From Candidatus Nomurabacteria bacterium (lineage in GTDB: Bacteria; Patescibacteriota; Minisyncoccia; Phycocordibacterales; UBA9973), in the NCBI GenBank assembly GCA_023267195.1, contig JAHFNT010000002.1, positions 151,830 through 190,712 on the forward strand: a stretch of 38,883 bases of DNA. The letters are read 5' to 3'. Position 1 is the stretch's first letter. Each line of letters starts with the position of its first letter. The notes under the pieces are model-generated. The model made no database searches and had not been told where the DNA came from. It saw only the letters and a program-made list of their open reading frames with translations. Shown piece by piece: positions 5,166 through 27,162 of this stretch. The position numbers and the translations under genes were made by a program.

Positions 5166-5195
5166 CCCAAAAGCACCCAGATGGGTGCTTTTGGG
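5166..5195 (-). terminator. rho-independent terminator
   Basis: Perfect inverted repeat CCCAAAAGCACCCA-GA-TGGGTGCTTTTGGG followed by TTTTT on the minus strand. Confidence 0.85.
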
Positions 5196-5202
5196 AAGAA
5201 AG

Positions 5203-5262
5203 CTACTTTTTTGCTTTCTTTGGTTTCTTTTTTTCTTTTCTGTGTCCGTCTCCTTTTGCCAT
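5203..5262 (-). CDS. 19-aa Lys-rich microprotein MAKGDGHRKEKKKPKKAKK
   Basis: Complete ATG..TAG micro-ORF read by hand, between the SWIB gene and a strong terminator; resembles the micro-ORF at 26522-26587. Confidence 0.65.
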   Translation of the reverse strand: MAKGDGHRKEKKKPKKAKK

Positions 5263-5284
5263 AAAATCTTTATTAAATTAATAA

Positions 5285-5542
5285 TTAAGATAGATGCGCT
5301 GAGACAAGCTTGGTCATTTCGAACATATTGACCACTGCTTTGCCGCCGAATACTTTCTTTAGCTTCTCATCGGCGTTGATATTGCGCTTGTTCTTCGGGT
5401 CTTGCAGATTGTTCTTTTTAATATACACCCACAAGGCTTTGACGACCTCGGAGCGAGGCATCGGCCCCTTGCCTACTATCTCGGAGAGTTCAGCGCTCAC
5501 GTTCATCGGCTTCATAAATGCGGAACCTTTTTTGTCTACCAT
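5285..5542 (-). CDS. SWIB/MDM2 domain protein
   Basis: LSEIVGKGPMPRSEVVKALWVYIKKNNLQDPKNKRNINADEKLKKVFGGKAVVNMFEMTKLVSAHL. Confidence 0.92.
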   Translation of the reverse strand: MVDKKGSAFMKPMNVSAELSEIVGKGPMPRSEVVKALWVYIKKNNLQDPKNKRNINADEKLKKVFGGKAVVNMFEMTKLVSAHLS

Positions 5543-5562
5543 CGGATTTATTCTTGTTAACC

Positions 5563-5611
5563 CTTCGACTCCCTTCGACGATGCTCAGGGCAAGTCGCTC
5601 AGGGCAAGCTA
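5563..5611. repeat. REP-like CCCTTCGAC...GCTCAGGGCAAG element
   Basis: CCCTTCGACTCCCTTCGACGATGCTCAGGGCAAGTCGCTCAGGGCAAG: internal repeats of CCTTCGAC and GCTCAGGGCAAG. Confidence 0.6.
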
Positions 5612-5658
5612 TTAATGACTTGATTATAGCACACCAGAGAATTTTTAACGAGAGAGGT

Positions 5659-6621: not shown

Positions 6622-7617
6622 TTATTTTTCAGAAAGGGTGTATCTGTCCAAAATAGCTTCGAACATAAGTGGTGCCACAATGGTCGCGTCTGACTCAATG
6701 ACGAACATCGGGGTTTCTTTGGTAAGTTTATCCCAAGTAATCTTTTCATTCGGAGTCGCGCCAGAATAAGAACCGTAGGAAGTGGTACTGTCAGAGATCT
6801 GGCAAAAATATCCCCACGGTCGCACCGGCTTTTTCAAATCATATTTTATTGAAGGCACCACGCATATCGGAAAATCTCCGGAAATTCCTCCGCCAATCTG
6901 GAAAAAACCGAGACCTGGACCATTTTTTGAGAGTTCAGTATATTGATCATAAAGATACATCATATATTCCACGCCTGTTTTCATCACACTCGGCTTCACC
7001 TCCCCCGCCTTACAGTAGCCAGCAAAAATATTACCAAGCGTTGAATCTTCCCAGCCCGGCACCACTATCGGCAAGTTTTTCTTGGCAGCTTCGAGTAGCC
7101 AGCAATGTTCTGGATTGCCTTCGTACTTGCCTTGGAGCTCGTCGGAAAGAAGTATTTGATAAAAATATTCATGCGGAAAAAAACGGGCGCCGTTTTTTTC
7201 CGCCTCTTTCCACCTTTTTAAAATAATCGGCTCTACGACGCGGAAAGCTTCTTCTTCAGGAATAGAAGTATCTGTTACCCGCCTCTCGCCTCTGTTTAAA
7301 ATTGCTTCATCGTCTTCTTTGGTAAAATATCGGTAATCCGGATAATCTTTATAACTATTATGCGCGACTAACCGGAAAACAGATTCTTCCAGATTCGCAC
7401 CAGTGCAAGATATTGCGTGAATTTTATTTTCTTTGATCATTGAAGCGAGCGTAATACCCATCTGCGCCGAGGACATCGCGCCACCCATCGCGAGCAACAT
7501 CTTGCCATCTTCGTCTAAATGTTTCTTGAAAGCGAGCGTAGCATCTTTCATCGCCCGCGCGTTAAAATTGTGAAATAATTTTTGAAACAAATCTAAAACC
7601 GATATTTCTTTTTTCAT
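6622..7617 (-). CDS. deoxyhypusine synthase family protein
   Basis: MKKEISVLDLFQKLF...MGGAMSSAQMGITLASMI...QIGGGISGDFPICVVPSI...SYSGATPNEKITWDKLTKE. TATAAT 6 nt from ATG 7617. Confidence 0.88.
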   Translation of the reverse strand: MKKEISVLDLFQKLFHNFNARAMKDATLAFKKHLDEDGKMLLAMGGAMSSAQMGITLASMIKENKIHAISCTGANLEESVFRLVAHNSYKDYPDYRYFTKEDDEAILNRGERRVTDTSIPEEEAFRVVEPIILKRWKEAEKNGARFFPHEYFYQILLSDELQGKYEGNPEHCWLLEAAKKNLPIVVPGWEDSTLGNIFAGYCKAGEVKPSVMKTGVEYMMYLYDQYTELSKNGPGLGFFQIGGGISGDFPICVVPSIKYDLKKPVRPWGYFCQISDSTTSYGSYSGATPNEKITWDKLTKETPMFVIESDATIVAPLMFEAILDRYTLSEK

Positions 7618-7658
7618 ATTCGCATTATACAAAATTTATTATAAAAAATGCAAGAAAA

Positions 7659-20846: not shown

Positions 20847-20884
20847 AATCTACTAAGTAATTATATACTAGATGTGTTCGTTTA

Positions 20885-21000
20885 AAAATAAAGGAAGCCT
20901 TTGGGGAAACTGGTTTGATTCCAGTACAGTGCCGCTACGGTAAGTCCCGAACACCATCAGGTGTAGGGAACAAGTCCGAATACCAATCGCTTTATGATTA
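20885..21000 (+). ncRNA. cobalamin riboswitch aptamer
   Basis: GGGGAAACTGGTTTGATTCCAGTACAGTGCCGCTACGGTAAGTCCCGA...AAGTCCGAATACC matches the B12-box architecture (GGTgaaAaTCC...GCCGCTACTGT...AGTCaGgAtACC). Confidence 0.9.
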
Positions 21001-21044
21001 GTCCCGAGCAGGAATTACTTCTTAGTTTATTTTGAAGGACCCCA

Positions 21045-21075: not shown

Positions 21076-21504
21076 ATGGCCAAAAAGAAAAGGGTAATAA
21101 TCGTATTTTTAATTTTAGCAAGCCTTTTAGGATTATTTTTTTATGCTTCGGAAAATACTTCTAAAAATCCACCTCTGCCCGACTCCCTCACCACTCAAAA
21201 AGAAAAAGTAAAAGCACCTCAATTCACCAAAACAATCTTGGAGGTAAACGGTGAAAAATACGATACGGAAATTACTGATAATTCAAGTGTTTATGATTTT
21301 ATGAATAAACTTCAGGAGGAGAAAAAAATAAATTTCACTAGCAAAACTTATACCGGAATGGGTAAACTGATTGTTGCAATAAATGGCATAAGAAGCGGCA
21401 ATGAGAGAACTTGGATTTATTATGTGAACGGCATTGAAGCGCAAGTCGGCGTTTCAAATTATAAAATAAAATCTGGAGATATTATCTCTTGGAAATATGA
21501 ATAA
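21076..21504 (+). CDS. DUF4430 (transcobalamin-like C-terminal domain) lipoprotein/membrane-anchored protein
   Basis: N-terminal TM then KTILEVNGEKYDTEITDNSSVYDFMNKLQEEK...ERTWIYYVNGIEAQVGVSNYKIKSGDIISWKY. Confidence 0.88.
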   Translation: MAKKKRVIIVFLILASLLGLFFYASENTSKNPPLPDSLTTQKEKVKAPQFTKTILEVNGEKYDTEITDNSSVYDFMNKLQEEKKINFTSKTYTGMGKLIVAINGIRSGNERTWIYYVNGIEAQVGVSNYKIKSGDIISWKYE

Positions 21505-23332
21505 AATTATTAAAATAATATTGTTAGGGGTATTTTTCTTAGCTAGTGGAAGCTTGGCATTGGCGGCTGACGTAAATTTAACAATCCGTGATAGAGCAAA
21601 TATTGTATTTTCTGGTACTGTTTCATTGCCAACTAGCATAACGAGCTTAAACGATATTGATACAACCCCGCACGCAGTAGATCCGAGTAGTGTATTAGCC
21701 ACTGTGGGGAGCGCCGATGAGACAAGCGGGAATTTTAATATTTCCAACCTAACATATTTCAGCTCCTTCAACTCCCTTTATTTAAAATGCATCACTTATT
21801 CTAGCGGAGAAAAGTGCGATGATTGGCAATATGTAGTCAATGGTTCGTACCCCCAAACAGGGATGGACCAAAATATATTAGCTGGCGGGGAAAATATTTA
21901 TGTATATTTTGGCCCGCAAAATAGAGTTCAATTAAGTTCCAATAATATAAATCAAAATGGCACACTAGTGGTGACAGCCCAAAAATATGATTATGAAAAC
22001 AATGCTTGGATTACCCGAACCGGAGTAACGATAGGTCTCACACAGTCAGATCCACTCAATCCATTTTTGCCAACAGAAATACAAACTTTGGCGGTAGATG
22101 ACAATGGACAAGCCAGCTTCTCGTCAATCCCTGCTGGTTCTTACGATGTTGGAGTGAGGGAAGATTTTTATTTTCCAAACCAAAAATTAACCGTCGTGGC
22201 ACCATCCATGAACGTATCGGGAGCTGGTAGTGGAAATTCTTCTTCAGGTTCAAATTCTCAAGAACAAGCAAATAAAAGCGAACCGAGTCCGATAGCTGAG
22301 ACAAAAAAGATATTTGATCTTGAAAAAGCCTTTGATTTTATAGCTGCGCAACAAAAAGAAGACGGGTCTTTCGGTGAAGATTTATACACTGATTGGGTCG
22401 CGTTGGCTCTGGCTTCTGGAAACTCTCAAGAACAAGTTATAAAATTAGTTAAATATTTTGGAAAATCTAAGTTAGAAAATCCGCAGTTAACTGATTACGA
22501 AAGACGCGCGATGGCCCTCATGTCGCTCGGACTCAACCCATACAACACCAATGGTGAAAATTATATAGAAAAAATAACTGCTGGTTTTGATGGAGAGCAA
22601 TTCGGAGATGCGCATGAATACAATGATGATGTGTTTGCTTTGATCGTTCTTTTAAATGCCGGCTATTCTGATGAGGAAGAAATAATCAAGAAAAGTACTT
22701 CTTTTATACTGGGAGCACAAAGCGAAAATGGTTCTTGGAGCGAAAGCGTAGATATGACCGGCGCTGTAATGGAATCGTTAGCAAAATTTAATCAAAATGA
22801 GCAAGTCAAAAACGCTCTCTTGAAAGCAAAAGATTTTCTAAAACAAAAACAGAACAACGATGGTGGGTGGGGTAATGCTTCATCGACTGCCTGGGCAATA
22901 GAAGGCATACTTGCAATGAACGAAAAGCCGGAGGACTGGAAAAAGGGAGAGGATATGTCATTTGATTATTTGGCTACGCTGCAAGATATTGATGGTGGAA
23001 TAAAAAATTTACAGGCAGACAAGGAAGATGGTAATTTGCAAAACAAAATTTGGGAAACTGCCTATGTTGCTTCCGCTTTATCAGGAAAAACTTGGGGTCA
23101 AATAATGCAAAAATTTGAAAAACCAGCGGAGGGTTTAAACCTGCCTACTAAGGAAGTTAGTCCAGTAAAACAAATCAGTAAAAAAAGTGCTAAAAAAATA
23201 TCTACCTTGGCTCAAACCGCCACAGCCATAAATGCAATTACCCCCTCCTCTAATTTAACCCCAAAAAACCTAGAAATTCTACCCAGAAAAAGCTGGTTTG
23301 CAAGATTGCTAGAAAGCATCTTTGGATTCTAG
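21497..23332 (+). CDS. secreted transcobalamin-like protein: DUF4430 domain plus prenyltransferase-like alpha/alpha repeats
   Basis: Signal peptide; WQYVVNGSYPQTGMDQNILAGGENIYVYFG; AFDFIAAQQKEDGSFGEDLYTDWVALAL...FILGAQSENGSWSESVDMTGAVMESL...FLKQKQNNDGGWGNASSTAWAIEGIL repeats; overlaps the preceding gene by 8 nt. Confidence 0.87.
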   Translation: MNKIIKIILLGVFFLASGSLALAADVNLTIRDRANIVFSGTVSLPTSITSLNDIDTTPHAVDPSSVLATVGSADETSGNFNISNLTYFSSFNSLYLKCITYSSGEKCDDWQYVVNGSYPQTGMDQNILAGGENIYVYFGPQNRVQLSSNNINQNGTLVVTAQKYDYENNAWITRTGVTIGLTQSDPLNPFLPTEIQTLAVDDNGQASFSSIPAGSYDVGVREDFYFPNQKLTVVAPSMNVSGAGSGNSSSGSNSQEQANKSEPSPIAETKKIFDLEKAFDFIAAQQKEDGSFGEDLYTDWVALALASGNSQEQVIKLVKYFGKSKLENPQLTDYERRAMALMSLGLNPYNTNGENYIEKITAGFDGEQFGDAHEYNDDVFALIVLLNAGYSDEEEIIKKSTSFILGAQSENGSWSESVDMTGAVMESLAKFNQNEQVKNALLKAKDFLKQKQNNDGGWGNASSTAWAIEGILAMNEKPEDWKKGEDMSFDYLATLQDIDGGIKNLQADKEDGNLQNKIWETAYVASALSGKTWGQIMQKFEKPAEGLNLPTKEVSPVKQISKKSAKKISTLAQTATAINAITPSSNLTPKNLEILPRKSWFARLLESIFGF

Positions 23333-26521: not shown

Positions 26522-26587
26522 TTATTTCTTTTTATCTTTCTTCGGTTTTTTCACGTCCTTCCTGTAAGCATTGTTTCCTTTTCCCAT
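26522..26587 (-). CDS. 21-aa Lys-rich microprotein MGKGNNAYRKDVKKPKKDKKK
   Basis: Complete ATG..TAA micro-ORF, 2 nt upstream of the ATG of the next gene; shares an M(A/G)KG-RK(E/D)-KKPKK-KK pattern with 5203-5262. Confidence 0.65.
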   Translation of the reverse strand: MGKGNNAYRKDVKKPKKDKKK

Positions 26588-26616: not shown

Positions 26617-27162
26617 TTATACTTCTTTTTTATAAAAATGGGCCACCGCCAGAAGTGTGAGTAGAGAGAAAAAAGCAGTAAGCGCTAGCATTGGGATAGA
26701 GATGTAACCACCAAATTCAGAAACTAAACGCTGGTAACAAGATATACCGGAGGCATCGCACGGCAAACTTGAATTTTCTCCAAAATAATAGAAAAAATTC
26801 TGATAAACAGAAACAAGAAAGCCTGCGCAAAGTAGCGGTAAGGCGTATCTAATGACCCTTCGGTCCTGATCCCAGAATGCAACTCCAAACATCAGTACTA
26901 AGGGGAACATAAAGACTCTCTGCCACCAGCACAGATAACATGGCAGAAAGTTTATAATTTCGGAATAAACCAAAGGGAAAACTGAGGCCATCAAAGAAAT
27001 TGCAAAACTAATTGGTAGAAAATGTTTATCAATGAAGTCTAAAAATAAATTTCTTTTTGTGTTAAAAAACAACACAACTAAAGCAACCACAGAGAAGACC
27101 TGCAGGGCGATGGCACCAGATCCTAAAAATAAATTCAAGTAATGTACGGTAGTAGTATTCAT
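26617..27162 (-). CDS. disulfide bond formation protein B family
   Basis: FLPCYLCWWQRVFMFPLVLMFG (CxxC) and SSLPCDASGISCYQRLVSEFG. Confidence 0.9.
   Translation of the reverse strand: MNTTTVHYLNLFLGSGAIALQVFSVVALVVLFFNTKRNLFLDFIDKHFLPISFAISLMASVFPLVYSEIINFLPCYLCWWQRVFMFPLVLMFGVAFWDQDRRVIRYALPLLCAGFLVSVYQNFFYYFGENSSLPCDASGISCYQRLVSEFGGYISIPMLALTAFFSLLTLLAVAHFYKKEV

Follow-up and report, generated by a model that had tools for sequence, protein, structure and literature searches.

Can an open reading frame (ORF) encoding only 19 amino acids be a gene and, if so, what might its product do? The question is raised by a 38,883-nucleotide stretch of a Candidatus Nomurabacteria contig (here, the window), part of a 648-kb genome assembly, in which the peptide MAKGDGHRKEKKKPKKAKK is encoded at positions 5203 to 5262 on the minus strand (5262→5203). 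ORFs this short fall under the usual limits of gene callers. Translation confirmed the complete ORF proposed in a sequence-only reading of the window, which had omitted the strand. Nine lysines, one arginine, and one histidine make 11 of the 19 residues basic, rather than the 12 counted in that reading. Its bounds are as had been described: the start codon follows the stop codon of a SWIB-domain gene (5285 to 5542, minus strand; Pfam PF02201, E = 9.5e-33) by 22 nt, and 7 nt separate the stop codon from the stem of a Rho-independent terminator (5166 to 5195, minus strand). This stem is the claimed perfect 14-bp palindrome when judged by eye, while the terminator scan gives 13 pairs and a 4-nt loop, followed by TTTTT; the hairpin folds as scanned (z = -3.1). 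The 22-nt gap (5263 to 5284, minus strand) is A/T rich, with no clear Shine-Dalgarno sequence, and most homologs in the genus have the same kind of region in front of them.

Conservation within the genus indicates that the ORF has been retained. The degenerate pattern M-A-K-G-x-K-E-x-K-K-P-K matched 31 of 80 same-genus genomes, with no matches to a reversed control pattern in the same 80, and a profile search raised the number of carriers to 57. We defined the family by the motif M-[AGS]-K-G-x(2-8)-[KR]-[ED]-x-K-K-P-K or, in a stricter form, M-A-K-G-x(2-8)-[KR]-E-x-K-K-P-K-K; the M-[AGS]-K-[GS] start and the [KR]-[ED]-x-K-K-P-K core are both found in the family of MAKGDGHRKEKKKPKKAKK. The peptides of the genus are 17 to 21 amino acids long, with few exceptions and 29 amino acids at most, and fall into DGHR, NNAY, MTHK, NSHP, and DTHQ subtypes. 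MAKGDGHRKEKKKPKKAKK itself is also present unchanged in a Candidatus Nomurabacteria contig (L110) and nearly identical in a second locus (L119). Terminator-like hairpins were found within 90 nt past the stop codon of 34 of 60 genus copies, at a median distance of 9 nt, compared with 0.6 expected. Therefore, the microgene often ends its own transcription unit.

Because the MAKGDGHRKEKKKPKKAKK gene is short, A rich, and lysine heavy, it might instead be a chance ORF held open by low-complexity sequence. The pattern of substitution led us to reject this candidate. In the DGHR-type group, which includes MAKGDGHRKEKKKPKKAKK (18 same-genus genomes), pN/pS was 0.005, and in an NNAY-type group (20 genomes) it was 0.019, values in which pN is biased downward at motif positions because the groups were picked by peptide; positions free of the pattern are likewise nearly fixed inside both groups. 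Thus, synonymous codons replace one another with no change in the peptide, so the codon-level conservation that the sequence-only reading had made its test is present. The synonymous changes fall in G, D, H, R, P, N, Y, and V codons, that is, in codons other than those for lysine as well, and core identity in the two groups is 0.84 to 0.90 versus approximately 0.3 for the 60-nt flanks. Fixed peptides despite third-position changes in 18 and 20 genomes, together with the empty reversed control, make a chance origin extremely improbable. To judge from these sequence comparisons, the MAKGDGHRKEKKKPKKAKK ORF is a genuine conserved protein-coding gene under purifying selection at the protein level.

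The window also contains a second family member, MGKGNNAYRKDVKKPKKDKKK, recovered by profile search and translation (26522 to 26587, minus strand). This 21-amino-acid peptide is of the NNAY type, belongs to the NNAY group analyzed above, and is a paralog of MAKGDGHRKEKKKPKKAKK within one window. Its gene is flanked by a 153-amino-acid ORF and, directly upstream, by a DsbB-like gene (26617 to 27162, minus strand; Pfam DsbB, E = 3.7e-06). The order of DsbB-like gene and then microgene recurs in the genus, and an upstream DsbB-like cluster is found in 17 loci.

Beyond the genus, 86 of 317 genomes of the order (27% of those sampled), representing 53 of 168 genera, carried the family, as did 14 of 237 genomes of the class. 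The family was also found in 28 of 299 genomes of Pseudomonadota (9%, including the genome on which the sample was centered) and in 1 of 145 genomes of Verrucomicrobiota, namely, the center genome of that sample. A phylum-wide pattern restricted to the core was left out of these prevalence figures because its matches lay mostly by chance within longer genes. Patescibacteria, alphaproteobacteria, and betaproteobacteria all have members of the family, and there are scattered loci in Verrucomicrobia, Planctomycetes, Acidobacteria, and Eremiobacterota. Variovorax, Devosia, Nitrosomonas, Rhodobacter, Verrucomicrobia, Planctomycetota, and Saccharibacteria are among the named loci. A search of plasmids returned one hypothetical protein and a search of phages no family member, both searches being limited by low-complexity filtering. 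The recovered proteobacterial members, among them a copy from the betaproteobacterium Aquabacterium olei annotated as a hypothetical protein (WP_170119688.1), share with the patescibacterial form the MAKG N terminus and the [KR]E.[KR]KPK core. Many begin with MAKGQ-x-[KR]-S-N-[KR]-E-x-[KR]-K-P-K, as in alpha- and betaproteobacterial hypothetical proteins of the form MAKGQ(Q/M)RSN(K/R)EAKKPKK…. They are, however, longer (mostly 33 to 53 amino acids), end in a variable tail at the C terminus, and are usually preceded by a clear Shine-Dalgarno sequence, whereas the patescibacterial form stops directly after the core and most of its copies have no obvious Shine-Dalgarno sequence. In three loci (L067, L068, and L163), over the approximately 280 nt ahead of the microgene and the microgene itself, stop codon included, a GIY-YIG-like nuclease frame continues into the microprotein (…NYSNILTSKNMAKGKDSRKEKKKPKKDKKK) with no intervening stop, which may reflect a fusion or read-in.

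Pfam gave no match for eight family members and NCBIfam only one chance match far below the cut-off; these tests used longer members, longer homologs included, and the 19-amino-acid ORF itself falls short of the 20 residues that the tool requires. A sequence search of the PDB found no chain matching the family up to an E value of 10, while a Thx query in the same search easily recovered its own chains. A literature search by motif strings found no paper describing the family, and the motif is not printed in the main text of a paper on small proteins of S. meliloti. Three known ribosomal microproteins invite comparison. Ribosomal protein Thx (bTHX) resembles the family in being very basic and short (approximately 26 amino acids) and in its M-G-K-G-D start, but it lacks the KE.KKPK core, and the family query retrieves no Thx chain. 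Borrelia bS22, a highly basic ribosomal microprotein (61% K/R) that was previously unannotated (PMC10618245), and mycobacterial bL37, a ribosomal microprotein of 24 amino acids (PMC5876184) reported from Actinobacteria only (PMC5876184), are tiny and were long overlooked, like the MAKGDGHRKEKKKPKKAKK family; the family, however, has no sequence similarity to any solved ribosomal chain in the PDB. Judged by sequence, it does not belong to bTHX, bS22, or bL37. We interpret MAKGDGHRKEKKKPKKAKK as a short, Patescibacteria-type member of a widespread and undescribed family of bacterial microproteins.

The gene neighborhoods were considered for hints of function. The SWIB gene and the microgene are probably cotranscribed in this genome, and from this arrangement the sequence-only reading had argued for a nucleic-acid-binding or ribosome-associated peptide. 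A SWIB gene lies within 1.6 kb of the microgene in only 2 of 224 inspected family loci, this genome and G030, where approximately 0.8 kb and another gene separate the two, and most microgene-carrying genomes of the genus have no detectable SWIB match. We therefore rejected a SWIB operon as the functional unit; that argument falls with it, although a role in binding nucleic acid or the ribosome is still our best guess. The SWIB neighbor had also suggested a peptide binding DNA or the nucleoid in the manner of a histone H1 tail. Such a peptide would fit the Lys/Pro-rich composition, the SWIB gene adjoining the microgene here, and the VF530 genes (Pfam title, "DNA-binding protein") that nine Variovorax-type and Verrucomicrobia-type loci (L115, L188, L078, L086, L100, L164, L175, L194, and L241) have no more than approximately 400 bp from the microgene, in two different arrangements. 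It is nevertheless unlikely, given that the SWIB adjacency is not conserved and that unspecific DNA binding needs neither the conserved acidic residue nor the near-fixed M-A-K-G.

A recurrent neighbor in Patescibacteria is a gene for an ABC-F-type ATPase with two ABC domains, whose best NCBIfam match is "ribosomal protection-like ABC-F" at 316 bits, below the cut-off of 380. This proximity was first seen in the loci and then tested on genomes of the order selected solely for the microgene, 55 of which have both genes. The two lie within 700 bp in 9 of these (0.1 expected; 7 of 30 families), within 2.5 kb in 11, and within 10 kb in 19 (1.4 expected; 14 of 30 families), expectations that assume random placement and are weakened by shared ancestry and by the codirectional layout of small genomes. 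All 19 pairs are codirectional, with the microgene upstream in 11 and downstream in 8. The proximity is thus nonrandom in the order. It could reflect a gene order kept from an ancestor, although the microgene occurs on either side.

In some genomes, the microgene lies 76 to 106 nt upstream of the ABC-F gene, and polylysine and KKPKK are able to slow translation. A regulatory leader or arrest peptide, in which translation of the poly-Lys/Pro codons would respond to some condition and regulate the gene that follows, might be arranged in this way. We regard it as very unlikely, since many copies have a terminator of their own and genes of various kinds close behind, the ABC-F gene is often upstream of the microgene instead, and the proteobacterial members carry long variable tails.

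The reading we prefer, to which we assign a probability of roughly 45%, is that the MAKGDGHRKEKKKPKKAKK family consists of basic peptides that bind rRNA or the ribosome. A structurally simple basic microprotein would bind rRNA or the ribosome and, once bound, would act as an accessory subunit or as a helper in assembly or translation, like bTHX, bS22, and bL37. We favor it because the composition, with its extreme basic content and KKPK core, fits, as do the ABC-F neighbors and the ArfB-like RF-1-domain gene that is divergent from the microgene in 16 loci of betaproteobacteria (Comamonadaceae type); bS22 and bL37 provide a precedent. Translation of the microprotein at a useful level, its binding to RNA, and its action on the ribosome are all inferences. 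Given its patchy presence (27% of order genomes and 9% of those of Pseudomonadota), it cannot be counted among the core ribosomal proteins. More specifically, it is conceivable but doubtful that this is a ribosome-associated protein spread over several phyla, with a minimal patescibacterial form of 17 to 21 residues, that works with the ABC-F factor.

Further observations count against ribosome binding: DsbB, DUF5679, and VF530 neighbors in other clades are not translation genes, and the PDB holds no family chain even though the bTHX control works. The neighbors vary by clade, with DsbB/thioredoxin-like genes accompanying the NNAY type and DUF5679 the DGHR type, and by eye the peptide has no signal peptide or hydrophobic stretch. 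Both features would suit a general-purpose basic peptide that has a different partner, such as a membrane, a chaperone, or a polyanion, and no special link to the ribosome; this we consider rather unlikely, as it does not account for the closeness of the ABC-F gene in 19 of 55 genomes of the order. If the microprotein is bound to the ribosome, as we favor, it would fill a gap in the translation machinery of Patescibacteria, which is reduced and poorly known; the ribosomes of CPR bacteria are smaller, and they have about half of the usual biogenesis factors (PMC12641178). Although its shortness puts it beyond the reach of routine annotation, the protein has changed very little within a large group of ultrasmall bacteria, and its longer relatives in culturable Proteobacteria make its function testable there.

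The window has other features of note. Before the SWIB gene, at 5560 to 5625, lies a short stretch rich in repeats (ccttcgac…gctcagggcaag). It has a 76% match at another site of the genome (C1:105467-105532) and is probably a dispersed repeat. A deoxyhypusine synthase-like protein is encoded at 6622 to 7632 on the minus strand (Pfam DS, E = 1.2e-35) of this patescibacterial genome. On the plus strand, a cobalamin riboswitch (20858 to 21005; 34.4 bits, just over the gathering score) precedes a secreted-looking ORF of 142 amino acids and an ORF of 611 amino acids (21076 to 23332), an odd arrangement for a reduced genome.
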